Assembly (NCBI RefSeq): GCF_040538665.1
Contig: NZ_JBEWXT010000001.1
Span: forward strand, 2,568,501 to 2,632,500
DNA length: 64,000 nucleotides
DNA from: Aureibaculum sp. 2308TA14-22
GTDB taxonomy: Bacteria; Bacteroidota; Bacteroidia; Flavobacteriales; Flavobacteriaceae
Reading direction: 5' to 3'
How positions within the stretch are numbered: the stretch's first letter is position 1; each line of letters opens with the position of its first letter. The notes beneath the pieces are model-generated. The model saw only the letters and a program-made list of their open reading frames with translations. It had not been told where the DNA came from and searched no databases. Below, in pieces: positions 12,137 to 30,421 of the stretch. Both the position numbers and the translations under genes were made by a program.

Positions 12137-12146
12137 ATAGATAAAG

Positions 12147-14012: not shown

Positions 14013-14029
14013 TTATAAAAAAATAAAAG

Positions 14030-15340: not shown

Positions 15341-15373
15341 TTAGTTAAAATTAACTTTGTTCTTATTTTATTT

Positions 15374-15408: not shown

Positions 15409-15415
15409 ATTTATT

Positions 15416-15455
15416 TGTCATTCAGAGCGGAGAAAAACGAAGCGAAGAATCTCAT
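15416..15455. repeat. TGTCATTC-type intergenic repeat, copy A
   Basis: Starts TGTCATTCAGAGCGGAG and ends GCGAAGAATCTCAT. It shares both ends with the element at 18064-18151 on the other side of the amylase gene. Short elements with this TGTCATTC...GAATCT pattern are familiar intergenic repeats in Bacteroidota genomes. Confidence 0.6.
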
Positions 15456-15486
15456 AAATATGATCGAATATGAAAAAAATATTACT

Positions 15487-18015
15487 ATGAAAAAAAAACT
15501 ACTCGTATTATTTTTATTTACCAGCGTCTTTACTTTTGCCCAACAGCAAACAGTAACCTTTACAGTAGCCCCAACACCTTTTGAGGAAACTGATCAAATC
15601 ACTATTACAGTTACTGATTTAGACCCGCAAGCAGCTTGGGGAGTAACTGATGTTTATCTTTGGGCATGGTCAACTGCAGGCGGCAGTCAAATGGATGCCC
15701 CAAATAATGGTACTTGGCAAAATTCTAATGAGGCTCATAAACTAACCAAGAGTGGCAATAACTATTCCATTACGTTTACACCAACCACCTTTTATGGAAG
15801 AACAGGAATGACCAGTATTGGTTTTTTAGTAAAAGCTAAAAATGGTGATGGCGATAAAAAATCACAAGACAAAGTAGTAAATGTAGGTACTATTATCGTA
15901 CCAACCGTTACGGAAGCTCCTGTTCCGACAGGAATGTTAGACGGCATAAACCTCAATCCAACTGATAATACTAAAGCAACGTTGGTACTCTATGCACCAG
16001 ATAAACAATTCGTAAATCTAATTGGCTCAATGAATAATTGGACACGTGATGACACCAATTACCTCTTAAAAAAAGACAGTTCTAAAGATAGATTTTGGGT
16101 AGAACTAACGGGACTGACCCCACAAACTAATATCATGTACCAATATTTGGTGGATGGATTGATTAGAATTGCAGACCCTTATTCTACTACGATTCTAGAT
16201 GAAAGCAATGATGGTTTTATAAATGCAACAACCTACCCTAATTTACCAACATATCCAACAGGACAAACCAATCATGCGGTAACACTATTAAGAACTGGTG
16301 ACACGCCATATAATTGGCAAACCACAAATTTTCAACCGCCCGCCAAAACCGATTTGGTCATTTATGAACTACTCATACGAGATTTTGATGCACTGCATAG
16401 TTTTGATGCAGTTAAAGGTAGACTAGATTATCTGCAAGACCTAGGTGTAAATGCCATTGAGTTAATGCCTGTAAGTGAATTTGACGGCAACGAATCTTGG
16501 GGTTATAACCCCTCTTTTCATATGGCGTTAGATAAGTATTATGGCACACCTACTGCTTTTAAGCAATTGGTTGACGAATGCCATTCACGAGGAATTGCGG
16601 TTATTTTAGATGTGGTGTATAACCATGCTACGGGTCAAAACCCATATTACAGAATGTGGAATACAGACAATGGTGGTTATGGTGGAAAAGCAACTACAGA
16701 CAGTCCGTTTTTTAATCCAGACGCAACACATAGTTACAGTGTTTTTAACGATTTTAACCATAGTAAACAAGCCACAAAAGACTATGTAAAACGTACCGCT
16801 CAATATTGGATTGATGAATATAAAATTGATGGTTTTAGATGGGATTTAACTAAAGGATTTACACAAAACTGTACCGATAGCGACCAAAATTGTACAAACC
16901 AAGAACAAGCTGATAGAGTAGCTGTTTTAAAAACCTATGCCGATTACCAATGGGAAGTTGACAATGATTTTTATGTCATTTTTGAACATTTAGGTACCAA
17001 TCAAGAAGAAACCCAATGGGTTAATTATAGGTTAGGTGAAGGCAAAGGCATTATGGTTTGGGGTAATCATAATGGTAATTATAGTGAAGCAACAATGGGC
17101 TATCACGATGCGGGAAAATCAGATTTCTCATGGATTTCCTATAAAAATAGAGGCTGGACAGTTCCTGCAAATGTGAGTTATATGGAAAGTCATGATGAAG
17201 AACGTTTAATGTATAAAAATCTGGAATTTGGTAATTCAAGTGGCACATATAATATTAAAACATTGGAAACTGCTTTAGACCGAATGGAATTAGCAGGGGC
17301 TTTCTATTTTACCATTCCCGGACCTAAAATGATTTGGCAATTTGGCGAATTGGGTTATGATATCAGCATCGATTTTAATGGAAGAGTCGGAAATAAACCA
17401 ATAAAATGGGAATATTTTAATGAACCCGATCGAAAAGCTATTTATGATACTTGGACCAAATTAATCAAACTAAAAAAGCAAGTTCCTATTTTTAAAACGG
17501 ATAATTTCACCTTAGATGTTGACAAAACAAACGGTCAGAAAAAGATACATCTGACAGATGACGCTACAAGCCCTGATGTAAAACATATTACCATTATTGG
17601 TAATTTTGGAGTAACTGCCCAGAATATAAGTCCCGAGTTTCAACAAACTGGAACTTGGTACGATTTGTTAAATGATAACACTACATTAACAGTATCGAGT
17701 ACTAGTGCACCTATTAGTTTACAACCTGGTGAATTTAGAATTTACGCCTCTAGTGCTGTTACATTGAGCGTGGAGAATATCTCAATTAATGATTTGGTAA
17801 GTATTTACCCCAACCCCGTTACCGATGAATTTAAAATTAACCACCAAACCAATACGGTAAACATTTATGATATTTCAGGACGATTGGTAAAATCGTTTAA
17901 AGGTAATTTTGAGTCAAATAATGCATTTGACATTTCAGATTTAAAGCCTGCTTTTTATTTACTAAAATTACAATCTGAACAAGGTGTGGCAACTAAAAAA
18001 TTGATAAAAAACTAA
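15487..18015 (+). CDS. T9SS-secreted GH13 alpha-amylase
   Basis: Extracellular or cell-surface alpha-amylase starting the attack on starch; 842 residues from ATG at 15487, chosen because MKKKLLVLFLFTSVFTFAQQ is a clean signal peptide. Upstream in-frame starts fall inside the intergenic repeat. Residues about 20-140 are a beta domain, and about 150-260 are CBM48/E-set-like (VNLIGSMNNW). The GH13 barrel follows: region I DVVYNH (D375-H380), region II GFRWDLTKGF (nucleophile D453), region III FEHLG (acid E500), region IV MESHDEE (D570). Residues about 765-842, opening VSIYPNPV, are a T9SS type A sorting domain. The gene has its own flanking terminators and may be transcribed separately from susCDE. 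Confidence 0.93.
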   Translation: MKKKLLVLFLFTSVFTFAQQQTVTFTVAPTPFEETDQITITVTDLDPQAAWGVTDVYLWAWSTAGGSQMDAPNNGTWQNSNEAHKLTKSGNNYSITFTPTTFYGRTGMTSIGFLVKAKNGDGDKKSQDKVVNVGTIIVPTVTEAPVPTGMLDGINLNPTDNTKATLVLYAPDKQFVNLIGSMNNWTRDDTNYLLKKDSSKDRFWVELTGLTPQTNIMYQYLVDGLIRIADPYSTTILDESNDGFINATTYPNLPTYPTGQTNHAVTLLRTGDTPYNWQTTNFQPPAKTDLVIYELLIRDFDALHSFDAVKGRLDYLQDLGVNAIELMPVSEFDGNESWGYNPSFHMALDKYYGTPTAFKQLVDECHSRGIAVILDVVYNHATGQNPYYRMWNTDNGGYGGKATTDSPFFNPDATHSYSVFNDFNHSKQATKDYVKRTAQYWIDEYKIDGFRWDLTKGFTQNCTDSDQNCTNQEQADRVAVLKTYADYQWEVDNDFYVIFEHLGTNQEETQWVNYRLGEGKGIMVWGNHNGNYSEATMGYHDAGKSDFSWISYKNRGWTVPANVSYMESHDEERLMYKNLEFGNSSGTYNIKTLETALDRMELAGAFYFTIPGPKMIWQFGELGYDISIDFNGRVGNKPIKWEYFNEPDRKAIYDTWTKLIKLKKQVPIFKTDNFTLDVDKTNGQKKIHLTDDATSPDVKHITIIGNFGVTAQNISPEFQQTGTWYDLLNDNTTLTVSSTSAPISLQPGEFRIYASSAVTLSVENISINDLVSIYPNPVTDEFKINHQTNTVNIYDISGRLVKSFKGNFESNNAFDISDLKPAFYLLKLQSEQGVATKKLIKN

Positions 18016-18157: not shown

Positions 18158-19597
18158 TTACAAACTCCATCCATCTCTATAGGTTCTTTTTACATACTTA
18201 TTGGCCGGATCAAAATTGGTAATTTTCATATTCTCGGCATCCCACAACAATCGCTTTCTTCCATAATATTTAGAACCTCCCCAAAACCCTTTATTCTCTG
18301 CCTTAGGATCAACCTCAAAATAAGCTTTTAAAGCCAAATTTCCAATAAGTATACTTTCGGTAAACGGACCGGCATAATCAAAAGAAGAGCTAGTCTCAGC
18401 ATTTCCGTATCCGGCAATACATGCATTAACCCATTGTAAATAATGACCTTCAGGGACTCTAGCAATGGTTTCTTCAACTTCAAATTGTTCATTTAACGTC
18501 AACGGAAGTAATCTAGGATTTGCACCGTAACAATCTGCCATTAATTTTCCTTTAGTACCTATAAAAAGTACGCCACCATCCCAGTTTCCTAATGCCTCAT
18601 CATCACCTAATTCATCTGGGCGTTCAGGCAATAATCCGCCATCCATCCACGAAACTTTTATCGAACCCTTTCCATCAGTTCTTGGGTACTTTAAATGAAT
18701 TTTACTAGAATTTGGAAAACTCTTTGGGTAATCAGCAGCTTCAAATTTTCCTTTAAAAGAATCTGAAACACTGCATTCTACAGTATCAGGATATAAAATA
18801 GGAAGTATACGGTAAACAGGATCCATAATATGGCAAGCCATATCACCTAGTGCACCCGTTCCAAAATCTGACCAGCCCCTCCAATCAAAAGGCAGATAAG
18901 CATCATTATAATCACGCATTTCTGCGGTACCTAACCAAAGATCCCAATTTAACCCTTTAGGTATTCTATGCTTTTTTGTAGGTGTTTGTAATGCTTGTGG
19001 CCAAATAGCTCGGTTGGTCCAACATTTAACAGTATGCACATCACCTATGATTCCCGTGTCATGAATTTCTTTCATTTTTCGCACTCCATCACCTGATCCA
19101 CCCTGATTCCCCATTTGGGTAACTACTTTATATTTTTTTGCAGCTTCGGTAAGCATTCTGGCCTCCCAAATATCATGTGTCAAAGGTTTTTGAACATATA
19201 CATGCTTACCCATTTGCATAGCTGCATAAGCAGCAACTGCATGAGTATGGTCTGGTGTAGAAACAGAAACTGCATCAATATTCTTCCCTTCCTTTTCTAG
19301 CATTTTTCTAAAATCGTTATAGTAACTAGCTTTAGGAAATGACTTTCTTGACTTAACAGCTTGTCTATCATCAACATCACAAAAGGAAACAATATTAACA
19401 TTAGGACTTTTTGCGAAAGAGGCAATATCACTTGTACCTTTTCCACCAGCACCGATTCCGGCAATATTTAGTTTGTCGCTCGGCGGAACAAAACCATCAC
19501 CTCCCATAACATGCCTCGGGATAATACTTATACCCGCAGCAGCTACGGCTGATTTTTTAATAAATGACCTTCTGGTTGATTTACCTTTTTTACTCAT
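18158..19597 (-). CDS. Tat-exported Gfo/Idh/MocA-family oxidoreductase
   Basis: NAD(P)-dependent sugar oxidoreductase family, 479 residues. A twin-arginine signal (TRRSFIKKSAVAAAGIS, residues 8-24) implies export folded with its cofactor to the periplasm. The Rossmann domain follows, with the dinucleotide loop GIGAGGKGTSD and the family motif VQKPLTHD (catalytic lysine of the EKP-type motif, here QKP). The C-terminal alpha/beta domain carries DMACHIMDP. In related pathways such enzymes oxidise a sugar C3 hydroxyl or reduce a keto sugar. It is the last gene of the minus-strand GMC operon, 11 bp after the TIM-barrel gene. The substrate is unknown. Confidence 0.88.
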   Translation of the reverse strand: MSKKGKSTRRSFIKKSAVAAAGISIIPRHVMGGDGFVPPSDKLNIAGIGAGGKGTSDIASFAKSPNVNIVSFCDVDDRQAVKSRKSFPKASYYNDFRKMLEKEGKNIDAVSVSTPDHTHAVAAYAAMQMGKHVYVQKPLTHDIWEARMLTEAAKKYKVVTQMGNQGGSGDGVRKMKEIHDTGIIGDVHTVKCWTNRAIWPQALQTPTKKHRIPKGLNWDLWLGTAEMRDYNDAYLPFDWRGWSDFGTGALGDMACHIMDPVYRILPILYPDTVECSVSDSFKGKFEAADYPKSFPNSSKIHLKYPRTDGKGSIKVSWMDGGLLPERPDELGDDEALGNWDGGVLFIGTKGKLMADCYGANPRLLPLTLNEQFEVEETIARVPEGHYLQWVNACIAGYGNAETSSSFDYAGPFTESILIGNLALKAYFEVDPKAENKGFWGGSKYYGRKRLLWDAENMKITNFDPANKYVKRTYRDGWSL

Positions 19598-19608
19598 TCT
19601 TTTTTTAT

Positions 19609-20529
19609 TTAAAATTTTGAAACTTCTTTATATGCATTAATTACGGCTTGTTCGCCTTTTTTATCTTTCATAGAATTACCATGTTCCATACCTAATATTC
19701 CTTGATAATTTTTGGAATGTATAAATTTAAAAACATTTTTATAATTAATCTCTCCAGTAGTTGGTTCCTTTCTTCCCGGATTATCACCAATTTGAAAATA
19801 GGCAATTTCATCCCAAGATTGTTTGATATTCGGAATTAAATTACCTTCTTGTATTTGTTGATGATAGATATCAAATAATATTTTACAGGATGGTGAGTCC
19901 ACCGCTTTACAAATTTGATACGCCTGAGGTGATTCTGATAAAAATAAACCAGGATGGTCTCTAAAATTTAATGGTTCTAAAACCATTGTTAAGCTATGCG
20001 GTTCTAAAATGGCCGAGGCCTGTTTTAAGGTTTCAACAACATGTTCGGTTTGGTACGCCATGTTCTGACGCAGGTCAACATGACCAGGAACTACCGTCAT
20101 CCATTTGGCATTTACACGTTTTGCAACCTCAACAGATGCTTTTATCTCTGATAGAAACTCTGTTCTTTTTTCTTTATTCCCAGAAGCTAAATTTGCTTCT
20201 TTCCAATGAATTGTATGAGCTACAAAAACTCCCATTTCTATACTTCGCTTTTGCATAGTTTTTGCCATGACTTCTTGTTCGGCAATCGGTCGTTTACGCA
20301 TCTGATTATCTTCAAAAGCGGTAAAGCCTTGGTCGGCCATAAAATTAAGTTGGTCTATAATACTATCACCCGCCAGATTTTTAAACATCCCAGCATGTGG
20401 GGCATATTTTAGCGGAAATTCATTTTTCAAATTTGTTTGTTTTGAACGTGTAAGTGGGTAAAAAGTTGAACTTGTTAAAGCAAAAGTACTTGCTAGAGCT
20501 GTTTTTTTAAGGAAATTTCTACGTTGCAT
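19609..20529 (-). CDS. Tat-exported TIM-barrel sugar isomerase/epimerase-like protein
   Basis: Protein of the xylose isomerase-like TIM-barrel superfamily, close in style to hydroxypyruvate isomerase; 306 residues. Residues 1-20 (MQRRNFLKKTALASTFALTS) form a twin-arginine signal. Likely metal ligands lie in VLEPLNF, ILFDIYHQQ and LGMEHGNS, the usual Glu/Asp/His/Glu pattern. In 3-keto-glycoside and C-glycoside deglycosidation pathways, enzymes of this fold catalyse the eliminative bond cleavage, which is a possible role here. It sits between a DUF1080 gene and a Gfo/Idh gene, both also exported, so the step is probably periplasmic. Confidence 0.85.
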   Translation of the reverse strand: MQRRNFLKKTALASTFALTSSTFYPLTRSKQTNLKNEFPLKYAPHAGMFKNLAGDSIIDQLNFMADQGFTAFEDNQMRKRPIAEQEVMAKTMQKRSIEMGVFVAHTIHWKEANLASGNKEKRTEFLSEIKASVEVAKRVNAKWMTVVPGHVDLRQNMAYQTEHVVETLKQASAILEPHSLTMVLEPLNFRDHPGLFLSESPQAYQICKAVDSPSCKILFDIYHQQIQEGNLIPNIKQSWDEIAYFQIGDNPGRKEPTTGEINYKNVFKFIHSKNYQGILGMEHGNSMKDKKGEQAVINAYKEVSKF

Positions 20530-20587
20530 TCTTAATTTTTGGTGTTTATTCCTACAAAATCTTAGAGAACTTTTATAGGATACTTAA

Positions 20588-21418
20588 TTAATCTTCTAAC
20601 TCTAACAATTCAATATTTCTGAATTCTACAGGATGACTTTCACTTTGTAAGGATATATAACCTCCTTTTAATGCGTCTCCTATTTTATTTTTAAATTCTG
20701 CATTGTAATCATCCATATCTGCTCCACCAATTTGAGGTTTTGAATACCTGAGTACTTCTTTATCATTAATTTTATGAATAATTAATGAATCACTGTGTAC
20801 CTCAACTTCTAGATTTACCCATTGATCTCCATAATAAGTTTCGGAACTAGAATTAGTACAATGTGCAGTTACCAACTCATCATCCATCACTACATTTGTT
20901 CCAGGTGTGCATAAATTTCCTGTAGCCCTACTCGCATTCTCCTTAATACCGCCCAACATCTGGACTTCTATACAAAGTGGGAATTTTTGATCTTTGGCTA
21001 TTTTTTTAGGATCTTCGCAGTGTATCATAACACCGCTATTTCTGGTTGCCCAACCGGGACCATCTTTAAGTTGCGTGCCTGTAAAACGATATTGTATTTT
21101 TAATTTGTAATTTGAAAAAGGTGCTTTGTAATATAAATGTCCAAATCTATTTTTAAATTCATCTCCATACCCATCATAAGAAACTTTGATAACTCCGTTT
21201 TCAACCCGAAAAGTATTATGGATATTATCGCCATACTCATAACCTCTAATTTTTGGTGTCCAACTTTCTAAATCTTTACCGTTAAATAAAGAAACCCAAT
21301 TTTCGGTTACTATATCTTCTGTTTTTGGTGCTGACTTTTCTGCTTCAGGCTTTGTTTTGCAGCTAAATACCATAAGTGAAGCTGAAATAACAATTATCAA
21401 GTTTAATTTTCTATACAT
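20588..21418 (-). CDS. DUF1080 (3-keto-disaccharide hydrolase family) lipoprotein A
   Basis: Lipoprotein of 276 residues, with a lipobox ending VFSC (C20) after a short hydrophobic signal. The rest is one concanavalin-like DUF1080 jelly roll, opening WVSLFNGKDLESWTPKI and closing PVEFRNIELLEL. Signature parts include NSGVMIHCED and the C-terminal QSESHPVEFRNI. The family name in Pfam, 3-keto-disaccharide hydrolase, implies cleavage of a glycoside whose sugar ring carries a 3-keto group. The GMC oxidoreductase upstream in the operon could provide that oxidised substrate. It is more distant from lipoproteins B and C than they are from each other. Confidence 0.88.
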   Translation of the reverse strand: MYRKLNLIIVISASLMVFSCKTKPEAEKSAPKTEDIVTENWVSLFNGKDLESWTPKIRGYEYGDNIHNTFRVENGVIKVSYDGYGDEFKNRFGHLYYKAPFSNYKLKIQYRFTGTQLKDGPGWATRNSGVMIHCEDPKKIAKDQKFPLCIEVQMLGGIKENASRATGNLCTPGTNVVMDDELVTAHCTNSSSETYYGDQWVNLEVEVHSDSLIIHKINDKEVLRYSKPQIGGADMDDYNAEFKNKIGDALKGGYISLQSESHPVEFRNIELLELED

Positions 21419-21429
21419 CTATTTATTAT

Positions 21430-22014
21430 TTATAGCGACCACGCCCTTCCATTTGTTTCGCTTAATGAGATACACCCCTTTTGCTCTCCTGGAACAGGGT
21501 CGTATGCCAACACATTTTTGCCAATTTCTTCACTTGTTTTATATGCCCAAACTGCTCTTCCTCGTAACCCTTCCAACGTTTTTAAAACCAATTTCTCTTT
21601 ATCACTATATGATTTTTGCTGCTCTGGTTTACTTCTTAAGTATTTGGATAAAATAGTATCAAAATCTTCCGTTTTTAAAGCAGGAGGATTTTCACTTAAC
21701 ATCCCTAACTCTTCTAAGACAGCATTTAAGCCTTTTTTATACTTTTCTTTTCCTTCTTCTGTAGCTGTTTTTGAAACATATAAATCGATAAATTCTGGCA
21801 CATTTACATCTAAAGCTCCAGGTGTAGCCTCGGTTTTAGGTAAAATTAAATCAATCAAATTTTTTAGAACATAGCCTTGCTCTTTTGATAAAAAAACTGG
21901 TATCCAAGATGCAGCTTCGGTCTTACAACTTTGAAGCATGCCTATTATTGTTGGAGTTGACACTACATAACCAAATGACAAACCTATCCCTTTTAGTGCG
22001 TCTCTTCTATTCAT
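21430..22014 (-). CDS. gluconate 2-dehydrogenase subunit 3-like small subunit (Tat)
   Basis: Small partner subunit of an FAD-dependent sugar dehydrogenase, 194 residues. The N-terminus MNRRDALKGIGLSFGYVVS is a twin-arginine signal. In FAD-glucose and gluconate dehydrogenases the equivalent subunit carries the signal-less flavoprotein across the membrane as a hitch-hiker and stabilises it. Only 3 bp separate it from the GMC gene upstream, strongly suggesting a complex. The body has the family's helical character (LKNLIDLILPKTEATPGALD, near the N-terminus). No cytochrome c subunit gene is visible next to it, so the electron acceptor is open. Confidence 0.88.
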   Translation of the reverse strand: MNRRDALKGIGLSFGYVVSTPTIIGMLQSCKTEAASWIPVFLSKEQGYVLKNLIDLILPKTEATPGALDVNVPEFIDLYVSKTATEEGKEKYKKGLNAVLEELGMLSENPPALKTEDFDTILSKYLRSKPEQQKSYSDKEKLVLKTLEGLRGRAVWAYKTSEEIGKNVLAYDPVPGEQKGCISLSETNGRAWSL

Positions 22015-22017
22015 AAT

Positions 22018-23718
22018 TTAAGCTTTTTTAGATTTGAATTGTTTAACTGCATATTGAGCAGCTCTTGCAGTTAATGCCATATAAGTCAATGATGGATTTT
22101 GACATCCCGCTGAGGTCATACAGGCACCATCAGTAACATATACATTAGGTACGGTATGGATTTGATTAATAGCGTTAAGCACAGAAGTTTTTGGATCTCT
22201 ACCCATTCTTGCTGTACCCATTTCATGGATACCAATACCGGGTGCATGCCTTGTGTCAAAAGTTTCAACATCTCTAAAACCTGCTTTTTCTAGCATTTCA
22301 GCGGCTTGTTGTTTAATGTCTTCACGCATAGTCAATTCATTCTCTTTCCATTCAGCATCAAAAGTTACTGTTGGTAGGCCCCAATCATCTAATTTTTCAT
22401 AATCCAATGTCATTTTATTATCATGGTAAGGTAAACATTCGCCGAAACCACCTAAGCCCATACTCCATCCTCCCGGTTTCAATATTGCCTCTTTATATTC
22501 GGCTCCATAACCTAATTCAGCAATATGTTCAGTAATACCATACCTTCCCCCTCCTCCTTGGTAACCATAACCTCTTAAAAAATCTTTTCTTTCTGTTTTT
22601 TTGTCTCCTAAATTTCTGAATCGTGGAATGTAAATTCCATTAGGCCTTCTTCCTTTATAATATTTATCTTCATAACCATCAACCTTTGCTCTTGCTCCAG
22701 ATCCTAAGTGATGATCCATAATATTATGGCCCAATTCGCCCGAGTCGTTACCCAATCCATTAGGAAACCTATCTGATTTAGATTGCATTAAAATAGACGT
22801 AGAAGCGATTGCAGAGGCACAGCAAAAAATAATATCAGCATTAAAAACATATGTTTCTTTAGTTTCGGTATCAATAACTTTTACTCCTGTGGCTTTCTTC
22901 TGTTTATCATCATAAATAATCTCATGAACAATAGAATTTGGTCTCAAAGTCATGTTACCTGTAGCATTTGCAGCTGGCAAAGTTGAAGCATTACTGCTAA
23001 AATAACCTCCATAAGGGCAGCCCCTAATACATCTGTTTCTGAATTGACAATTTGTTCTGCCTTTGTGTTTATGATCGCCTGTAATATGTGCAGCTCTACC
23101 AATTGTTAATAATCTATCATCGTAATTATTTGCAATTTTCGACTTAAATTCTTCTTCAACACAGGTCAGTTCCATCGGCGGGCTAAAAATTCCATCTGGC
23201 AATTGTGGTAATCCCAACTTCTCACCGCTCACGCCAATATAACGTTCAACATAATCATACCAAGGTGCAATATCTTTATACCGTATTGGCCAATCTACAC
23301 CATAACCGTCTTTAGCATTTGCTGTAAAATCCAGATCACTTAAACGATAACTTTGACGACCCCATGTAATGGAACGTCCACCAACATGATATCCTCGCAT
23401 CCAATCAAAACGCTTAACTTCGTTATACGGATGTTTAATATCATCTACAAACCAGTGCTTACTTTCTGCCTTTGTTGTATAACCTGTTCTGCTCTGTTTT
23501 TCTTGTCTTTTTCTATCTTCTGGAGTACTACTTCCTCGTAACTCCATATCCCAAGGATCATCGTTCATTGTAGGGTATTCACCATGCTTAACCATTCTAC
23601 CACGCTCTAATACCAATGTTTTTAATCCTTTTTCACAAAGCTCTTTTGCTGCCCAGCCTCCACTAATTCCTGTTCCTATTACTATGGCATCATAATGTTC
23701 GTTAAGCATGTTATTCAT
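22018..23718 (-). CDS. GMC-family FAD oxidoreductase 1 (sugar dehydrogenase large subunit)
   Basis: Flavoprotein dehydrogenase, 566 residues, probably oxidising a hydroxyl of a glycoside. The FAD-binding loop is GTGISG (15-20), with ERG ending the second strand. Active-site candidates are H498 (HEMGTARMG) and N541 (QNPSLTYMA). Three cysteines, C224, C230 and C234, lie in the motif CQFRNRCIRGC. FAD-glucose dehydrogenases use cysteines in this part of the protein to bind an iron-sulfur cluster, so the same is possible here. It has no signal peptide, and export would rely on the Tat subunit encoded 3 bp downstream. It is the first gene of a five-gene operon running to 18158. Confidence 0.9.
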   Translation of the reverse strand: MNNMLNEHYDAIVIGTGISGGWAAKELCEKGLKTLVLERGRMVKHGEYPTMNDDPWDMELRGSSTPEDRKRQEKQSRTGYTTKAESKHWFVDDIKHPYNEVKRFDWMRGYHVGGRSITWGRQSYRLSDLDFTANAKDGYGVDWPIRYKDIAPWYDYVERYIGVSGEKLGLPQLPDGIFSPPMELTCVEEEFKSKIANNYDDRLLTIGRAAHITGDHKHKGRTNCQFRNRCIRGCPYGGYFSSNASTLPAANATGNMTLRPNSIVHEIIYDDKQKKATGVKVIDTETKETYVFNADIIFCCASAIASTSILMQSKSDRFPNGLGNDSGELGHNIMDHHLGSGARAKVDGYEDKYYKGRRPNGIYIPRFRNLGDKKTERKDFLRGYGYQGGGGRYGITEHIAELGYGAEYKEAILKPGGWSMGLGGFGECLPYHDNKMTLDYEKLDDWGLPTVTFDAEWKENELTMREDIKQQAAEMLEKAGFRDVETFDTRHAPGIGIHEMGTARMGRDPKTSVLNAINQIHTVPNVYVTDGACMTSAGCQNPSLTYMALTARAAQYAVKQFKSKKA

Positions 23719-23765
23719 TTGGCTTTTAAATATTTACGTAATACTTACTTATTAAAAATAATACG

Positions 23766-23811
23766 ATTTGATTAGGTATTGAATAATTTTAAAGCCTAAA
23801 TTTAATCAAAT
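23766..23811. promoter_or_regulatory. inverted repeat ATTTGATTA ... TAATCAAAT in divergent promoter region
   Basis: A perfect 9-bp inverted repeat (23766-23774 and 23803-23811, 28-bp spacer) lies in the middle of the 184-bp gap between the divergent GMC 1 operon and the lipoprotein epimerase operon. It could be a shared regulator site. In such AT-rich DNA, chance is also possible. Confidence 0.3.
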
Positions 23812-23902
23812 TATTACTATTTTAATGAAACTTTTGTAATTTTATCATTCAAAAAAATAAGACAACACAATCATTTATTTAAAATATCTTAACCAAACAA
23901 TT

Positions 23903-24841
23903 ATGACAAAAAACATTCTTTATGCATTATTTGCACTTCTCTTAACTACCGCTTCTTGTAAGAAAACATCACCTAAAACCGATGAAACAGTAGAAGTTGT
24001 TTCAGCTGAAAAAAAAGCACCTTTTTTTAAAATCTCATTAGCTCAGTGGTCTTTGCATAAAGCCATACGGAATGAAAAAACCTTAGATCCGATAGGTTTT
24101 GCAGAAAAAGCCAAAGAACTAGGTTTTGAAGGTATAGAATATGTATCGGGACTGTACAATGAAAAATTAAAAACTATGAGTATGGATGCTCTTCTTGATT
24201 CTTTAAAAGCTAAAAGTACAGCTCATGGTGTTAAAAATGTTTTGATTATGGTAGACGGTGAGGGAAATTTGGCTTCAACGGATGAAAAAGAAAGAAATCA
24301 AGCTATTGACAATCACAAAAAATGGGTTGATGCTGCTGCTTTTTTAGGATGTCATGCTATTCGTGTAAACTTAAATGGTGCCACTGAAAAAGATGCTTGG
24401 ATAGAATCTTCGGTTAAAGGTTTAGGCAAATTGGCCGAATATGGAGCAACCAAAAACATCAATGTAATCGTTGAAAATCACGGTGGGTTTTCTTCAAATG
24501 CAGATTTATTGAGCGAAGTTATGACCAAAATTAATATGGATAATTGTGGAACACTACCCGACTTTGGCAACTTTCGCATATCCAAAGATGAACTTTATGA
24601 CTATTACAAAGGTACAGAAATCTTAATGAAGCATGCCAAAGCAGTTAGTGCTAAATCTTATGATTTTGATACAGATGGTAATGAAACTACTCTAGATTAC
24701 ACTCGTTTATTACAAATTGTAAAAGATGCAGGATATACCGGATATATCGGAGTTGAATATGAAGGAAGCCGTTTGAGTGAAGAAGAGGGTATTGAAGCTA
24801 CCAAACAATTATTAATAAATGCTGCTAAAAAGTTAAATTAA
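23903..24841 (+). CDS. sugar isomerase/epimerase-like TIM-barrel lipoprotein
   Basis: Xylose isomerase-like TIM barrel of 312 residues with lipobox TASC (C19) instead of a Tat signal. It is therefore membrane-anchored on the periplasmic or surface side. Likely metal ligands lie in VENHGGFSS, TLPDFGNF and the C-terminal IGVEYEG. It shares the fold with the Tat-exported TIM barrel at 19609-20529 and the cytosolic one at 27802-28854, but the three are clearly different proteins. It is cotranscribed with the Gfo/Idh gene 17 bp downstream. The reaction is unknown; epimerisation or eliminative cleavage of keto sugars fits the neighbours. Confidence 0.85.
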   Translation: MTKNILYALFALLLTTASCKKTSPKTDETVEVVSAEKKAPFFKISLAQWSLHKAIRNEKTLDPIGFAEKAKELGFEGIEYVSGLYNEKLKTMSMDALLDSLKAKSTAHGVKNVLIMVDGEGNLASTDEKERNQAIDNHKKWVDAAAFLGCHAIRVNLNGATEKDAWIESSVKGLGKLAEYGATKNINVIVENHGGFSSNADLLSEVMTKINMDNCGTLPDFGNFRISKDELYDYYKGTEILMKHAKAVSAKSYDFDTDGNETTLDYTRLLQIVKDAGYTGYIGVEYEGSRLSEEEGIEATKQLLINAAKKLN

Positions 24842-24858
24842 GAATAAAAAATTAATCT

Positions 24859-25995
24859 ATGCCAAAAAAAATAAGATTGGGAATTCTAGGTGGTGGAGGT
24901 GATTCACTTATAGGTGTGTTACATCGTGTTGCCTCACACATTAATGATAATTATAAAATTGTTGGAGCTGTTTTTAATCCTAACTATAATGACAATTTAA
25001 GTTTTGCCAAAGAAATAGACATTCCAACTAATAGAATTTATAAGGATTTTGATACTTTAATTGATGAAGAACTAAAGCTGCCCGAAGATGAACGAATTCA
25101 AGTTTGTTCTATACTCACTCCAAATTTTTTGCATTTTCCAATGGCTAAAAAATTATTGGAAAATGGATTCAATGTGATTTGTGAAAAACCAATGACTACA
25201 ACTTACGAGGAGGCTAAAATTTTACAGGAAATTTTAAATGATTCTGATTTGACTTTTGCGGTTACACATACTTATACTGGCTATCCAATGACTCGCCAAA
25301 TGCGTGAAATGATAAAAGATGGAGTAATTGGCAACATGCAAAAAGTAGATGCCCAATACTATCAAGGATGGATAAACCCAATCATACACGATAAGTCTAA
25401 ACGTAGTTCAACGTGGCGATTAGATCCTGAAAAATCAGGAATTAGCTGTTGTATGGGTGATATAGGTGTGCATGCCTTTAATATGATTGAGTTTACAACG
25501 GGAATGCAGGTAAAGTCTATTTTAGCTGATCTCAATTACTTATACGAAGACAATAAAATGGATATTGACGGAACTGTTTTAGTACGATTTGATAGCAATG
25601 CTAAAGGCGTTATCCGTTCCAGTCAGATTGCTACAGGAGAAGAAAATGGATTGACTATTGCTGTTTACGGAGACAAAGGTGCTCTTAAATGGGAACAAGA
25701 GAATCCTAATTTTTTATATCTGTTGAGTGATGACAAACCTTTGCAAGTTTATAAACCGGGACATGCTTACAATTCAGAGCTGTCTTTAGATGGTACAAAA
25801 TTACCTCCTGGGCATCCTGAAGGTATTTTTGATGCCATGGCAAATATTTATTTAGGTGTAGCCAGAGCCATAAGAGGCGAGAAGTACAATTCTGGGGAAT
25901 TCCCAACAATGAGTGACGGTGTACGCGGACTTAACTTTATTGAAAGTACCGTAAATTCTCATAAACAAGGAAATAGTTGGGTAGATTTGGATTGA
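24859..25995 (+). CDS. cytosolic Gfo/Idh/MocA-family oxidoreductase
   Basis: NAD(P)-dependent sugar oxidoreductase of 378 residues without any signal sequence. The dinucleotide-binding loop GILGGGGDSLIG (8-19) is at the N-terminus, CEKPMTT holds the family's catalytic lysine, and CCMGDIGVHAFNM holds the usual aspartate/histidine pair. It is the cytoplasmic counterpart of the Tat-exported enzyme at 18158-19597. One possible role is reducing a keto sugar back to the parent sugar after import. It follows the TIM-barrel lipoprotein gene by 17 bp, and its stop lies 6 bp from that of the convergent GMC 2 gene. Confidence 0.9.
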   Translation: MPKKIRLGILGGGGDSLIGVLHRVASHINDNYKIVGAVFNPNYNDNLSFAKEIDIPTNRIYKDFDTLIDEELKLPEDERIQVCSILTPNFLHFPMAKKLLENGFNVICEKPMTTTYEEAKILQEILNDSDLTFAVTHTYTGYPMTRQMREMIKDGVIGNMQKVDAQYYQGWINPIIHDKSKRSSTWRLDPEKSGISCCMGDIGVHAFNMIEFTTGMQVKSILADLNYLYEDNKMDIDGTVLVRFDSNAKGVIRSSQIATGEENGLTIAVYGDKGALKWEQENPNFLYLLSDDKPLQVYKPGHAYNSELSLDGTKLPPGHPEGIFDAMANIYLGVARAIRGEKYNSGEFPTMSDGVRGLNFIESTVNSHKQGNSWVDLD

Positions 25996-26001
25996 ATTAT
26001 T

Positions 26002-27705
26002 CTAAGAAAATTTACCCAATTTTAGTTGTTCTGTTGCATGGTTTGCTGCTCTTGCTGTAAAAGCCATATATGTTAATGATGGGTTTACACAACTTGACGA
26101 AGTCATAAATGCTCCATCTGTAACATACACATTAGGTACTGAGTGTACTTGATTATTTCTGTTTAGTATTGATGTTTTGGGATTCTCACCCATTCTTGCT
26201 CCACCCATTTCGTGAATACCTAATCCAGGGCCAGATGGTTCATCATAAGCTTTTACATCTTTAAACCCTGCCGCCTTAAACATGCTAACAATCTCTTTTT
26301 TAATGTCTTCTCGCATGTTGTATTCATTCTCTTTGAATTCAACATCAAAATCTAATTGAGGCAAACCCCATTTATCCTTTTTATCAGAACTCAACGTAAC
26401 TCTATTATCATCATAAGGTAAAAATTCACCAAACCCAGTTACCCCAATTTGCCAACCGCCCGGTTTTAGTATTGCTTCTTTTAATTGTTCACCATAACCT
26501 AATTCCGCAATAGATTCTGACCAATCATGTCTGCTTGCTCCTCCCTGAAATCCATATCCGCGTAAAAAGGATTCTTTTTTTGTCTTTTCATCAAGATTCA
26601 CAAAACGTGGAATATAAAATCCATTAGGTCTTCTACCTTTATAATATTTATCTAAATGACCATCTACTTTCGCTGTGGCTCCTAGTTTATAATGATGATC
26701 CATTATTCCTCTACCCAAAGCATCAGAATCATTTCCTAAACCATTAGGGAAACGTTCAGATTTTGATTGTAATAAAATACCTACCGAAGCCATAGCCGAA
26801 GCACATAAGAAAATAACCTTAGCTTTAAATTCTATTTTTTCACTAGTAACTGTATCAATAATTTTAACACCAGTAGCTCTTTTTGTAACATCGTCATACA
26901 TCACTTCATATACTATTGAATTAGGTCTCAAGGTCATATTTCCTGTACGTTCAGCAGCAGGTAATGTAGAAGCATTGCTACTGAAATAAGCACCATATGG
27001 ACACCCTCTCCAACACCTATTTCTATATTGACAAGGTCCACGCCCTTTAATATCAGTTGTGTTACCTGTTATGTTTGCGGCTCTACCAATAGTAAGTAAT
27101 CTTCCGTCATCAAACTTTTCAGCCAAAGCGTTTTTTAAATCAATCTCTGCACAATGCAATTCCATGGGCGGTAAAAATTTTCCATCGGGCAATTGTTTTA
27201 ATCCTAAATTTTCACCACTAACTCCTATATATTCCTCGACCATATCATACCATGGCGAAATATCTTTATAACGCACTGGCCAATCAATACCAATACCTTC
27301 TTTTTTATTGGCCTCAAAATCAATATCGCTCCACCTATAACTTTGCCTTCCCCAAGTTAAAGAACGACCACCTACTTGATATCCACGAATCCAATCAAAA
27401 CGTTTTGTTTCCACATATGGATGATCTAAATCGTTGACAAAAAAGTGCTTACAATCTTCTTGAGGAGCCCACCCTACTCTTTTTTGAATATGATATTTTT
27501 CTAAATCCGCCGGTGATAGTTCTCCTTTTAACTCATAATCCCAAGGATCATCATTCATCGTTTTATAATCTTTAACGTGCTCTACCATTGGTCCACGTTC
27601 TAAAACTAAGGTTTTTAAACCCTTTTCACATAATTCTTTGGCCGCCCAACCTCCGCTAATTCCTGTACCCACTACAATGGCGTCATATTCTGATTGTTGA
27701 TTCAT
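26002..27705 (-). CDS. GMC-family FAD oxidoreductase 2
   Basis: Close paralogue of the GMC protein at 22018-23718, 567 residues from ATG at 27705 (MNQQSEYDAIVVG). A longer reading from 27753 adds a charged, non-homologous stretch and is rejected. The FAD loop GTGISG, the cysteine set C225, C231 and C235 (CQYRNRCWRGC) and the active-site pair H498 (HEMGGARMG) and N541 (VNPSLTYMA) are all kept at nearly the same positions. It is a single-gene unit with no adjacent subunit-3 gene. It may therefore share the small subunit at 21430-22014 or rely on one outside the window. It is divergent from the TIM-barrel/DUF1080 operon that follows. Confidence 0.9.
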   Translation of the reverse strand: MNQQSEYDAIVVGTGISGGWAAKELCEKGLKTLVLERGPMVEHVKDYKTMNDDPWDYELKGELSPADLEKYHIQKRVGWAPQEDCKHFFVNDLDHPYVETKRFDWIRGYQVGGRSLTWGRQSYRWSDIDFEANKKEGIGIDWPVRYKDISPWYDMVEEYIGVSGENLGLKQLPDGKFLPPMELHCAEIDLKNALAEKFDDGRLLTIGRAANITGNTTDIKGRGPCQYRNRCWRGCPYGAYFSSNASTLPAAERTGNMTLRPNSIVYEVMYDDVTKRATGVKIIDTVTSEKIEFKAKVIFLCASAMASVGILLQSKSERFPNGLGNDSDALGRGIMDHHYKLGATAKVDGHLDKYYKGRRPNGFYIPRFVNLDEKTKKESFLRGYGFQGGASRHDWSESIAELGYGEQLKEAILKPGGWQIGVTGFGEFLPYDDNRVTLSSDKKDKWGLPQLDFDVEFKENEYNMREDIKKEIVSMFKAAGFKDVKAYDEPSGPGLGIHEMGGARMGENPKTSILNRNNQVHSVPNVYVTDGAFMTSSSCVNPSLTYMAFTARAANHATEQLKLGKFS

Positions 27706-27731
27706 TTTATTTTTTTTATGTATTATCTTAT

Positions 27732-27794
27732 TCCTATATTTATAATCTCTCAAAAGACTATAATAATTAAGTAGAATTTTCTATAAATATAGGA
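27732..27794. promoter_or_regulatory. 13-bp inverted repeat in GMC 2 / TIM-barrel divergent region
   Basis: TCCTATATTTATA (27732-27744) and TATAAATATAGGA (27782-27794) are exact reverse complements separated by 37 bp. They bracket the divergent promoter region: the left copy is 27 bp from the GMC 2 start and the right copy 7 bp from the TIM-barrel start. They may be paired operator sites or symmetrical leader elements. Confidence 0.45.
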
Positions 27795-27801
27795 TAATAA
27801 A

Positions 27802-28854
27802 ATGAAGACAATAAAAGGACCTGCTGTTTTTTTAGCACAATTTATGGGTGATGATGCTCCGTTCAACTCGTTAGACGGATTATGTAAATGGGCAAGTGAT
27901 TTAGGCTATAAAGGTATTCAAATCCCTACTTGGGAAACAAGACTAATAGATTTAGATAAAGCAGCTGAAAGCAAAACCTATTGCGATGAGTTAAAAGGCA
28001 AAATAAATTCTTATGGTTTAGAGATAACTGAGCTTTCAACACATCTTCAAGGTCAACTAGTAGCTGTGCATCCAGCCTATGATATTATGTTTGACAATTT
28101 TGCACCTGACAGCGTAAAAAACAACCCTAAAGAAAGGACTAAATGGGCAGTACAAACTGTTAAAAATGCTGCTATTGCCAGTAAACATCTAGGGTTAAAA
28201 GCACATGCCACATTTTCGGGAGCATTACTTTGGCACACGATGCATCCTTGGCCACAAAGACCTCCCGGATTGGTTGAAATGGGTTTTGAGGAATTAGCAA
28301 AAAGATGGTTGCCTATTTTAAATGTCTTTGACGAAAATGGTGTGGATGTTTGTTATGAAATTCATCCTGGAGAAGACCTTCATGATGGTGATACTTTTGA
28401 ACGCTTTTTAGGAGCAACAGGAAATCATAAGCGTGTAAATATTTTATACGACCCTTCCCATTTTGTATTACAACAATTAGATTATCTGGCCTATATAGAT
28501 CATTATCATGAGTTTATAAAATCTTTCCACGTAAAAGATTCTGAATTCAATCCTACAGGAAAAAAAGGAGCTTTTGGCGGATACAACAATTGGGGCGACA
28601 GAGCTGGACGCTATCGTTCTTTAGGTGATGGCCAAATAGATTTTAAAACTATTTTTTCGAAACTAACTCAATACGGATGTGATGTTTGGGCTGTAATGGA
28701 ATGGGAATGCTGCATTAAAAGCCCAGAGCAAGGAGCAAGAGAAGGTGCTGTTTTTATTAAAAATCACATTATTGAAGCCACAGAAAAAGCCTTTGATGAT
28801 TTTGCTGGGGCGGACATTGACAAAGAAAAACTAAAAAGAATACTAGGAATTTAA
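27802..28854 (+). CDS. cytosolic sugar isomerase/epimerase-like TIM barrel
   Basis: Xylose isomerase-like TIM-barrel protein of 350 residues with no export signal. Likely metal ligands lie in VCYEIHPGEDLHDG (E and H), ILYDPSHFVLQ (D and H), SFHVKDSEF and VMEWECC near the C-terminus, a full set for a divalent metal site. Proteins of this type are often annotated as sugar phosphate isomerase/epimerase. In keto-sugar pathways they act as epimerases, isomerases or lyases. It opens a short operon with two DUF1080 lipoproteins, 17 bp before the first, and is divergent from GMC 2. Confidence 0.88.
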   Translation: MKTIKGPAVFLAQFMGDDAPFNSLDGLCKWASDLGYKGIQIPTWETRLIDLDKAAESKTYCDELKGKINSYGLEITELSTHLQGQLVAVHPAYDIMFDNFAPDSVKNNPKERTKWAVQTVKNAAIASKHLGLKAHATFSGALLWHTMHPWPQRPPGLVEMGFEELAKRWLPILNVFDENGVDVCYEIHPGEDLHDGDTFERFLGATGNHKRVNILYDPSHFVLQQLDYLAYIDHYHEFIKSFHVKDSEFNPTGKKGAFGGYNNWGDRAGRYRSLGDGQIDFKTIFSKLTQYGCDVWAVMEWECCIKSPEQGAREGAVFIKNHIIEATEKAFDDFAGADIDKEKLKRILGI

Positions 28855-28871
28855 AAACCACCATAACACAA

Positions 28872-29609
28872 ATGAAAAAACTAACTATTATTTTACTTGC
28901 ATTACTTACTTTTTTGGCATGTAAAAACGAAAAAAAAGAGACTGCTCAGGTAGAAGAACCTAAAGCAGAAACTCAAATTATGGCTGAAAATACAAATGAG
29001 TGGATTACACTGTTTGATGGTAGCTCTATGGATGCTTGGCGGGGTTATTTAATGAATGATATGCCTTCAGGTTGGTCTATTGAAAATAATGCAATGGCAT
29101 TTACGCCTGTAAAAGGTGGTGGACAAGACATTATTACCAAGGAAAAGTTCGAAAATTTTGAATTATCCATAGAATGGAAAATTTCTGAGGGTGGTAACAG
29201 TGGTATATTTTGGGGGGTTTTAGAAGCTAAAGATGAAAAAATTTACGGATCTGCTTTAGAAGTTCAAGTGCTGGACAACCAAAGACATCCCGATGCCAAG
29301 AACGGAACGGATCGTCAGGCAGGAGCCTTATACGATTTGGTATCGCCTTCGAAAGATGTTTCTAATCCAGCCGGAGAGTGGAACAAAGCGGTAATCAAAA
29401 TTAATCACAAAACCAATGAAGGTTCTTCTACCTTAAACGGAACTATAATTGCTACTTTTCCGTTGCATGGAAAAAAATGGGATGAACTAGTTGCCAATTC
29501 CAAATTTAAAACCTGGGACAAATTCGCTAAAACACCAAATGGCCATATTGGCTTACAAGATCATAGTGACAAAGTTTGGTTTAGAAATATTAAAATTAGA
29601 AAATTATAA
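28872..29609 (+). CDS. DUF1080 (3-keto-disaccharide hydrolase family) lipoprotein B
   Basis: Lipoprotein of 245 residues; the lipobox is FLAC (C17), followed by a charged, Glu/Lys-rich linker of about 30 residues. The jelly-roll domain opens WITLFDGSSMDAWRGY and closes HIGLQDHSDKVWFRNIKI, with the family core EWKISEGGNSGIFWG and EVQVLDNQRHPDA. The NSGIF and LQDHSDKVWFRNI motifs are typical of the family's sugar-binding face. Its stop codon shares one base with the start of the next DUF1080 gene, so the two are translationally coupled. Confidence 0.9.
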   Translation: MKKLTIILLALLTFLACKNEKKETAQVEEPKAETQIMAENTNEWITLFDGSSMDAWRGYLMNDMPSGWSIENNAMAFTPVKGGGQDIITKEKFENFELSIEWKISEGGNSGIFWGVLEAKDEKIYGSALEVQVLDNQRHPDAKNGTDRQAGALYDLVSPSKDVSNPAGEWNKAVIKINHKTNEGSSTLNGTIIATFPLHGKKWDELVANSKFKTWDKFAKTPNGHIGLQDHSDKVWFRNIKIRKL

Positions 29610-30421
29610 TGTATAAAAATATTATTATCATCTTCGTTAGTTTAGCTCTTTTTGGATGTAAGGAATCCCTAAAAAAAGAAAGTGAAAGCGACACAAAAAT
29701 TGACACTTTACAACAAGTAGAAAACTTAGAAAAAGAACCTACTAAACCTGAAGAAACAGAAATTTGGGAGCCTAAGCCACCTAAAGTAAGTATAGATAAA
29801 AATGGTGTTCCTTCAGATGCCATAGTGCTATTTGATGGTAAAAATTTAGATGAATGGGTTGTCGATAGAGATTCGACTGAAGCAAAATGGACGCTCAATA
29901 AAGACGGAAGCATGACTGTTGTTAGTGGTTCAGGAAGTTTACAAACCAAACGAAATTTTGGCAGTATACAATTACACCTTGAATGGAAATCTCCAACCAA
30001 AATTGTTGGAGAAGGACAATCTAGAGCCAATAGTGGAGTGTTTATCCAAAAACGTTACGAAGTACAAATTTTAGACAATAACAATAATGACACTTATGTA
30101 AACGGTCAAGTTGGGGCTGTTTACAAACAATCCATTCCTGCTGTAAACGCCGCAGTTCCTACTGGAGAATGGAACAGTTATGATATTATTTTTCATGCCC
30201 CAAAATTTGACGCTGATGGCAAAAAAACAAAATCTGGAACTATCACTGTTTTACACAATGGCGTCTTAATTCAAGATCATTTTGAAATTCAAGGAGCTGT
30301 AGCCTTTATTGGTTGGCCAACCAATGAACCCCACGGCAAAGCTCCAATAATGTTACAAGACCATAATGATGGCAGCAAACCTAGTTTCAGAAATATTTGG
30401 GTCAGGGAATTAGATGATTGA
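29609..30421 (+). CDS. DUF1080 (3-keto-disaccharide hydrolase family) lipoprotein C
   Basis: Third DUF1080 lipoprotein of the island, 270 residues. The lipobox is LFGC (C16), followed by a long Glu/Lys/Pro-rich linker (about 17-70) that would hold the domain away from the membrane. The domain opens AIVLFDGKNLDEWV and closes IMLQDHNDGSKPSFRNIWV, with RANSGVFIQKRYEVQILDN in the core. The core and C-terminal motif group it with lipoprotein B. It starts inside the stop codon of that gene (1-bp overlap). The next gene, dtd, lies 30 bp further and may be read through. Confidence 0.9.
   Translation: MYKNIIIIFVSLALFGCKESLKKESESDTKIDTLQQVENLEKEPTKPEETEIWEPKPPKVSIDKNGVPSDAIVLFDGKNLDEWVVDRDSTEAKWTLNKDGSMTVVSGSGSLQTKRNFGSIQLHLEWKSPTKIVGEGQSRANSGVFIQKRYEVQILDNNNNDTYVNGQVGAVYKQSIPAVNAAVPTGEWNSYDIIFHAPKFDADGKKTKSGTITVLHNGVLIQDHFEIQGAVAFIGWPTNEPHGKAPIMLQDHNDGSKPSFRNIWVRELDD

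Follow-up and report, generated by a model that had tools for sequence, protein, structure and literature searches.

Levoglucosan is degraded by LgdA-B1-B2-C through successive oxidation, elimination, hydration and reduction (PMC7676230). The same chemistry was described for 3-keto-phlorizin with AtOGE and AtHYD, although the accessible part of that article calls the evidence for the hydratase preliminary (PMC10628242). In Caulobacter, the genes reported to be important on lactose are lacABC and one for a DUF1080 protein, along with those for a transporter, two epimerases and a reductase situated beside lacB (PMC9007349). We describe here an island of 11 genes located at positions 18158–30421 of a 64,000-nucleotide stretch of the Aureibaculum sp. 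2308TA14-22 genome (contig NZ_JBEWXT010000001.1, positions 2,568,501 to 2,632,500), hereafter called the window. The island encodes two GMC dehydrogenases, a small subunit, two Gfo/Idh proteins, three TIM barrels and three DUF1080 lipoproteins. Judging from the sequences, we consider it likely that the island is a cassette for breaking down glycosides without hydrolysis, with its steps shared out across the inner membrane. Four things were directly observed: the gene content, its recurrence in other genomes, the motif differences within the DUF1080 family, and the homology that one protein, TimC, shows to a solved hydratase.

The gene inventory proposed in a first-pass annotation made from the DNA letters was recovered in full, all the named types being present with Pfam hits above the cut-offs (GMC_oxred_C/N twice, Gluconate_2-dh3, GFO_IDH_MocA twice, AP_endonuc_2 three times and 3keto-disac_hyd, PF06439 or DUF1080, three times). 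The genes are arranged in two divergent runs. The closely spaced minus-strand run comprises GMC1, Sml, Dk1, TimT and GfoT, and the plus-strand run comprises TimL, GfoC, TimC, Dk2 and Dk3. The GMC2 gene lies antisense between GfoC and TimC and breaks an otherwise continuous TimL-GfoC-TimC-DUF1080 run. The open reading frames were called mechanically, and the scripts took GMC2 one residue ahead of the start chosen below. The features are the following (Tat, twin-arginine translocation; FAD, flavin adenine dinucleotide; PDB, the database of solved structures).

18158–19597, minus strand: GfoT, Gfo/Idh/MocA protein of Tat type, related to the BT_2158 glycoside 3-dehydrogenases (PF01408, 1.9e-18; NF058561, 508.9 bits; PDB 8tdf/8tdh, E ~1e-100)
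19609–20529, minus strand: TimT, Tat-type TIM barrel, hydroxypyruvate/2-oxo-tetronate isomerase-like (PF01261, 4e-32; TIGR03234, 133 bits, below the 353-bit cut-off)
20588–21418, minus strand: Dk1, DUF1080 lipoprotein (signal read by eye) of a distinct subfamily, with QSE replacing QDH (PF06439, 8.3e-39)
21430–22014, minus strand: Sml, GMC small (hitch-hiker) subunit, with a twin-arginine start and a lipobox-like cysteine, both read by eye (PF13618, 3e-21)
22018–23718, minus strand: GMC1, FAD dehydrogenase with C-x5-C-x3-C, proposed glycoside 3-dehydrogenase (PF05199/PF00732; solved relatives; motifs)
23719–23902, no strand: GMC1-TimL divergent intergenic region, probable divergent promoter judging from the gene layout; the longer inverted repeats are imperfect
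23903–24841, plus strand: TimL, TIM-barrel lipoprotein (PF01261, 2.3e-30; PDB 4ovx, 2.4e-89)
24859–25995, plus strand: GfoC, Gfo/Idh protein without recognisable signal, proposed 3-keto-sugar reductase (PF01408/PF22725; linkage to TimC)
26002–27705, minus strand: GMC2, second GMC dehydrogenase, with no small-subunit gene next to it (ATG start, picked by eye within a TTG frame of 583 amino acids)
27732–27744 / 27782–27794, no strand: perfect 13-nucleotide inverted repeat between GMC2 and TimC, possible operator (repeat scan)
27802–28854, plus strand: TimC, cytosolic 2-hydroxy-3-keto-glucal hydratase homologue (PDB 8ro4, 563 bits, residues 1–350 against 1–349)
28872–29609, plus strand: Dk2, DUF1080 lipoprotein of QDH type, eliminase/hydratase-like (PF06439, 2.3e-44; best solved DUF1080 relative, 4.7e-43)
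29609–30421, plus strand: Dk3, DUF1080 lipoprotein (signal read by eye) of QDH type (PF06439, 1.1e-40)

The kind of pathway is already known from Caulobacter lac, Agrobacterium and Bacteroides, and the less expected element is the Dk1 branch with its altered active site. LacA is presumably a GMC protein with a small subunit, and Caulobacter has PF13618 and PF06439 profile matches. The Caulobacter lacABC-DUF1080 cluster, and the related clusters of Halomonas, Algoriphagus and Indibacter, resemble the island by the presence of a LacABC-type dehydrogenase near a DUF1080 gene, according to the accessible part of the source (PMC9007349). The Caulobacter cluster also includes a transporter, two epimerases and a reductase (PMC9007349). 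In a comparison by gene type only, the island has the types other than the transporter and the cytochrome. It possesses, in addition, a Tat Gfo/Idh protein, a second GMC without small subunit and a Dk1-type DUF1080 protein. The Bacteroides BT2157/BT2158 system resembles the island in combining an exported glycoside 3-dehydrogenase of the Gfo/Idh family with a lyase/hydratase of the DUF1080 family; the constant oxidase of the island is the GMC pair, in contrast to this system, and no GMC or small-subunit match was found in the flanks of about 1.5 kb per side of 12 BT2158-type loci. We take LgdA to be a Gfo/Idh protein. The lgdA-B1-B2-C genes of Bacillus smithii correspond to the same four-step chemistry, with two isomerase-like proteins and the Gfo/Idh reductase LgdC, but the oxidase is NAD-dependent and acts on an anhydrosugar, and the accessible part of the article names no GMC or DUF1080 protein (PMC7676230). 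Among the matches listed in a search of open-licence PMC titles and abstract beginnings, none describes the present cassette of flavobacteria or the Dk1 subfamily.

We propose a route in which the first two reactions would take place in the periplasm. The GMC dehydrogenase, carried through Tat by Sml, would oxidise the glycoside at C3, and the electrons would travel via an iron-sulfur cluster to a c-type cytochrome encoded elsewhere. A DUF1080 lipoprotein would then beta-eliminate the 3-keto-glycoside, releasing an aglycone or a sugar together with a 2-hydroxy-3-keto-glycal. The QDH-type Dk2 and Dk3 would probably hydrate the glycal too, and Dk1, with a glutamate at this place, probably would not. 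The 3-keto product would be imported into the cytoplasm, where TimC would hydrate the 2-hydroxy-3-keto-glycal to a 3-keto-sugar and GfoC would reduce the latter to an ordinary sugar. In this model GfoT would act as a second periplasmic C3 oxidoreductase, a BT2158-like Tat enzyme. We infer every activity, the direction of the redox steps, the transport and the substrate, which is perhaps a beta-glucoside or a disaccharide. Such a pathway offers another way than glycosidases, and the sequences are sufficient to propose its cytosolic half.

The proposed cytosolic half is anchored by TimC. Sequence searches against solved structures covered GMC1, GfoT, Dk1, TimC, TimL, GfoC and Dk2. Using phmmer, TimC aligned end to end with PDB 8ro4, a 2-hydroxy-3-keto-glucal hydratase, with a score of 563 bits, the next solved relative reaching 150. 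This full-length homology suggests that TimC is itself a 2-hydroxy-3-keto-glucal hydratase. The 8ro4 protein is presumably the hydratase of the Agrobacterium GlycDH-OGE-HYD-Gfo operon, and the likeness of the island to this operon resides in the end-to-end alignment and in the 35% identity of GfoC to the TimC-adjacent Gfo of a Rhizobium plasmid. The two differ in that the oxidase and the lyase of the island are predicted to be exported, and its lyase is a DUF1080 protein. For TimL the sole strong solved match was 4ovx (2.4e-89), an unnamed protein.

The recurrence of the gene set was evaluated from two starting genes. In the forward survey, the best 80 of at least 576 confirmed GMC1 relatives in species genomes were considered together with flanks of up to 10 kb, and each gene received the label of the window protein that was its best BLASTP hit (E 1e-8, 40% of the length of that protein). 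A GMC and a small subunit were present in all 80 loci, TimL was nearly as constant as the oxidase (77), and matches to GfoC (72), DUF1080 (72), TimC (64), GfoT (25) and TimT (22) followed, with the reservation that low-identity Gfo, TIM or DUF1080 labels may be other paralogues. All six core families (GMC, small subunit, TimL, GfoC, TimC and DUF1080) were found together in 54 of the 65 loci of at least 20 kb. The set was biased towards close Flavobacteriaceae; L002 and L003 belong to one species, and L004 and L102 probably to one genome. One locus of the collection (L057) is a 3.2-kb contig filed as Candidatus Rokubacteria which carries TimL-GMC1-Sml, with a GMC 71% identical to that of the window, and is probably a mis-binned Bacteroidota contig.

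In the reverse survey, TimC was used as the query in 148 Bacteroidota genomes, of which 33 matched at E 1e-60, the window's own genome included. The 32 other genomes provided 33 loci (one of them gave two), including L122 which covers only 7.3 kb. These loci were searched with profiles built from the forward loci, together with 20 control stretches, 18 of them located 100–200 kb away on the same contig in the same genomes and two taken from the window's genome. A Gfo/Idh gene was observed in 31 of the 33 TimC loci compared with 2 of the 20 controls, and DUF1080 (20 loci), GMC (18), a TimL/TimT-type barrel (17) and the small subunit (16) were all absent from the controls. GfoC was directly upstream of TimC in 24 of these 33 phylum-wide loci. 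The first-pass annotation depended on the genes being associated in related genomes, and both surveys showed that the set recurs. The cluster is present in many Flavobacteriaceae, and may therefore account for glycoside use that is missed by glycosidase-based annotation.

TimC was also present on plasmids, with 341 plasmid records showing a match, 239 of them at 60–80% identity. In the four Pseudomonadota plasmid regions that were opened, a Gfo gene always adjoined TimC and its product was 35–40% identical to GfoC. A Pseudoalteromonas plasmid displayed the order AraC-Gfo-TimC-MFS-DUF1080-GMC-small subunit-TIM, where MFS stands for a major facilitator superfamily transporter. TimC-GfoC looks, from these sequences, like a module common to several phyla and finishing the work of different oxidases.

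The proposed periplasmic oxidase consists of a GMC protein and its small subunit. The best solved relatives of GMC1 were the large subunits of fructose and FAD-glucose dehydrogenases. GMC2 is 67% identical to GMC1, and both keep the motifs C-x5-C-x3-C, HEMG and NPSLT. We take the spacing of the three cysteines to be that of a 3Fe-4S cluster ligand. The cysteine motif and HxMG were found in all of the 92 GMC relatives counted in the 80 loci, an NPSLT-like motif being also present in 89, and a small-subunit gene lay within 1 kb of 89 of the 92. The class of FAD-dependent glucose dehydrogenases (FAD-GDH) is described as containing FAD and a 3Fe-4S cluster, with one small subunit that serves as hitch-hiker through Tat and another subunit that is a cytochrome c (PMC9727119). 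GMC1 and Sml display the corresponding combination, C-x5-C-x3-C being present in the GMC protein and PF13618 in the small subunit, and the pair fits the class of FAD/Fe-S sugar dehydrogenases by its sequence features. The FAD-glucose/fructose dehydrogenase complexes 6a2u and 7w2j are similar in having a GMC catalytic subunit with the cysteine motif and a Tat hitch-hiker small subunit; the island differs from them by the lack of a cytochrome c subunit and by the attack at C3 predicted for GMC1. The putative second exported oxidoreductase, GfoT, matches the solved 8tdf/8tdh (E ~1e-100), and 22 of 395 Bacteroidota genomes contain a protein that reaches the cut-off of NF058561.

Orphan GMCs devoid of an adjacent small subunit represented 3 of the 92 relatives and were situated at L024, L025 and L064. 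In these three loci a GMC lies between GfoC and TimC, as GMC2 does here, and this was not the case in the Aureibaculum loci L001, L004 and L102. The divergent gap between GMC2 and TimC corresponds to positions 27706–27801, and a perfect 11-nucleotide inverted repeat (27701–27711 / 27796–27806) overlaps the starts of the two genes.

The signal types were judged by eye, and a crude signal pattern was applied to the window proteins and to their relatives. Twin-arginine N-termini were visible in GfoT, TimT and Sml, and a lipobox-like cysteine in TimL and in all three DUF1080 proteins, whereas GfoC and TimC showed no recognisable signal. Both GMCs lacked a signal as well; the twin arginines of Sml would explain this, and the genome encodes one TatC. 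The crude pattern agreed with the reading by eye for GfoT, TimT, TimL, Dk2, GfoC and TimC, but it returned no signal for Sml, Dk1 and Dk3 of the window. The earlier view that nearly every type occurs in an exported and a cytosolic form is correct for the Gfo/Idh proteins and the TIM barrels only, since all three DUF1080 proteins look exported and both GMCs are without signal.

The three DUF1080 proteins scored far above the gathering score of PF06439 (134, 152.1 and 140.1 bits for Dk1, Dk2 and Dk3, respectively, against 26.8). The first-pass annotation had regarded this family as 3-keto-disaccharide hydrolases; the titles of its solved entries are instead 3-keto-glycoside eliminase/hydratase or 3-keto-2-hydroxy-glucal hydratase, and elimination and hydration are favoured over the hydrolase chemistry, which is not supported as first put forward. 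When 35 Dk1-type and 86 Dk2/Dk3-type sequences were aligned, those of the window among them, Asn-Ser-Gly, Glu151, Gln153, Trp200 and Gln258 (Dk1 numbers) were kept in at least 99% of both groups. A QDH motif was present in Dk2 and Dk3 and in 88 of 91 relatives assigned to them. The Dk1 cluster relatives displayed QSE at this place in 34 cases out of 35, the 35th being a short frame, and an aspartate found in 98% of the Dk2/Dk3-type sequences was a glycine in the Dk1 type. At E 1e-40, Dk1 had matches in 53 of 395 Bacteroidota genomes. In 30 phylum-wide Dk1 loci (one per genome, the window's genome included) the motif was QSE in 26 and QAE in 4; Glu260, His133, Cys170, His186 and His215 were present in all 30 and His262 in 29, and the aspartate position was occupied by glycine in 29 and by alanine in one. 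This degree of conservation makes the Dk1 type look like a subfamily under selection rather than a decayed copy. The structural model of Dk1 had a mean predicted local distance difference test score (pLDDT) of 85.3, and Foldseek ranks 1–14 were all DUF1080-type entries. With VIA-align, the unrelated carbohydrate-binding module 4azz (Z of 16.6) tied with DUF1080 entries (16.1–18.0), so that the fold alone does not single out DUF1080 for Dk1; the sequence profile does.

The motif difference may be related to a characterised residue. According to the accessible part of the source, the H275N variant of the Bacteroides thetaiotaomicron (B. theta) 3-keto-O-glycoside lyase is deficient in hydration (PMC13273386). 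The histidine of QDH is residue 250 of the 265-residue chain of 3osd (BT2157) and aligns with Glu260 of Dk1. The own numbering of 3osd reaches at least 290, at a position aligned with Dk1 residue 275 and corresponding to chain residue 265 in sequence register. For the numbering of a 265-residue chain to extend to 290, the offset must be 25 or more, and with an offset of 25 the QDH histidine (chain residue 250) becomes H275; the two 3osd alignments disagreed by about two residues at the N-terminus. We infer from these alignments that the QDH histidine is the B. theta H275. The BT2157-type hydration histidine is thus found in Dk2 and Dk3, which probably also hydrate the glycal to a 3-keto-sugar, and is replaced by Glu260 in Dk1. 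Dk1 may eliminate without hydrating, or it may perform some other chemistry by means of its own set of histidines and cysteine.

A more ambitious, and doubtful, proposal is that the DUF1080 family holds a second, Bacteroidota-wide chemistry, in which Dk1, coupled to the GMC dehydrogenase, would perform on 3-keto-glycosides the elimination and nothing more; the periplasmic 2-hydroxy-3-keto-glycal would cross the inner membrane, and TimC and GfoC would hydrate and reduce it. Dk1 would, on this tentative account, have exchanged the hydration histidine for a glutamate and the conserved aspartate for a glycine while fixing His133, Cys170, His186, His215 and His262. The whole route might then, with equal reserve, amount to a reaction in four steps like that of GH4, but distributed between two compartments. 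The Dk1 subfamily lends itself to a direct test of how elimination and hydration are kept apart within one fold, and we consider it worth following together with the membrane-split route anchored by TimC.

In its 3.57 Mb, the genome contains nine PF06439 matches in eight genes, three of which are those of the island, and two small-subunit matches. These low genome-wide numbers, like the recurrence in other genomes, place the grouping above chance. Three further DUF1080 loci of the same genome have an adjoining Gfo/Idh gene (L097, L098, L099 and L100 being the own-genome loci). L097 encodes a double-DUF1080 protein of 456 amino acids, and L100 a second Dk1-type gene with the motif QAE and without island-type neighbours.

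The genes surrounding the cluster provided indications on transport and electron transfer. Of the 45 recurring neighbour clusters listed for the 80 forward loci, nine were identified by Pfam, each through a single representative. Among the recurring neighbours were a Nuc_H_symport MFS (42 loci), another MFS (25), a cupredoxin (22), an AraC regulator (18) and a cytochrome c (15). Using the same representatives with BLAST at E 1e-20, the respective numbers in the 33 reverse loci were 25, 2, 1, 0 and 0. The Nuc_H_symport-like MFS was absent from the 20 control stretches, and its linkage in the relatives fits an import of the keto product. The genome of the window possesses an unlinked 45% homologue of the other recurring MFS and, likewise unlinked, a 50% homologue (at G000:C1:1855695) of the cytochrome c of a relative. 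A cupredoxin-like lipoprotein, encoded up to about 10 kb from GMC1 in relatives, is a candidate alternative electron acceptor.

Several observations weigh against the membrane-split cassette. No importer was found among the island proteins, and PF03825 (Nuc_H_symport) had no match in this genome, other transporters not being surveyed. The Pfam search also identified no cytochrome c among the 11 proteins, so the linked cytochrome of the FAD-GDH class is missing. The scheme initially put forward is largely right in outline: homology and conserved linkage support its exported oxidation and cleavage, followed by restoration in the cytosol and involving no glycosidase. They do not support a self-contained island. 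The TimC loci lacked a GMC in the stretch in 15 cases out of 33 and a DUF1080 gene in 13, and the four plasmid regions included two without GMC and three without DUF1080. TimC-GfoC is therefore not tied to this oxidase or lyase. No co-occurrence of Dk1 and TimC was found in the forward loci, TimC being present in 27 of the 35 with Dk1 and in 37 of the 45 without, so that the genomic pattern neither supports nor refutes their coupling. TimT and TimL have no reaction assigned to them in the scheme. The score of GfoT against NF058561, the BT_2158 equivalog (508.9 bits), is under the curated cut-off of 750 bits. Lastly, the crude pattern flagged 15 of 72 GfoC relatives (and 2 of 64 TimC), and for this reason some GfoC relatives may be exported.

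It is conceivable, although we lean against it, that the pathway is completed in the periplasm. The DUF1080 proteins would then eliminate and hydrate, and GfoT with a bound nicotinamide would reduce the 3-keto-sugar while oxidising the next glycoside in a redox-neutral manner, leaving TimC-GfoC to process keto-sugars imported from other sources. Two DUF1080 proteins of QDH type are indeed available, the island is without importer, and GfoT resembles the periplasmic glycoside 3-dehydrogenase BT2158 (PMC11300592, accessible part). However, TimC and GfoC, with 64 and 72 of the 80 forward loci, are more constant than GfoT with 25, and the MFS found in 25 of the 33 reverse stretches also speaks for import. 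The periplasmic and the membrane-split routes may run together. With a low probability, the cassette would be devoted not to disaccharides but to phenolic aryl or C-glycosides, and would have a C-glycoside lyase among its TIM barrels. As far as the accessible parts of the articles go, 3-keto-glycosides of both the C- and the O-type are substrates of TIM barrels (PMC10628242; PMC13273386), and Caulobacter LacABC is active on salicin (PMC9007349). The match of TimL to the solved DgpC was weak (9m3b, 0.00045), however, and none of the nine Pfam-identified neighbour clusters, of 45 listed, points to aromatic catabolism.

The association of Gfo/Idh proteins and IolE-like TIM barrels could also evoke an island for the catabolism of inositol or another cyclitol, which appears very improbable. 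GfoT, GfoC, TimT and TimC gave weak NCBIfam IolG/IolE matches, but all were far under the cut-off, and TimC scored 563 bits against the glucal hydratase compared with 42.5 against the solved IolE; inositol catabolism was rejected on these scores. To our knowledge, inositol pathways do not contain three DUF1080 proteins or a GMC pair. A chance neighbourhood of common carbohydrate enzymes is scarcely credible. Gfo/Idh genes are common, as shown by the Gfo profile matches in 2 of the 20 control stretches, but the gene set was recovered from two independent starting genes and in Pseudomonadota, and both surveys, the reverse one with its controls, contradict an assembly by chance.

The island has no regulator and no SusC/D of its own, as already noted in the initial reading, none being identified inside by Pfam. 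A SusC or SusD of the window type was situated near the cluster in 8 of the 80 loci, two of which correspond to the maltose locus also present in the window, although other SusC-like receptors could escape this count. In the window, the island abuts a maltose/starch locus (1342–18015) encoding GH97, GH65, a HAD phosphatase-like protein, an MFS transporter, LacI, SusC, SusD, SusE and a GH13 with a sorting tail. A role of the island in maltose use was considered and no functional link is claimed, the neighbouring locus having its own GH13, GH65 and GH97. The amylase of the maltose locus is beside the cluster also in L001, L004, L024 and L025, and this shared adjacency may reflect shared ancestry. 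Further along the window, at 43740–50932, genes for a GDSL lipase-like protein and a TonB-dependent receptor form a run with that of a reprolysin-like metalloprotease bearing a sorting tail for secretion.

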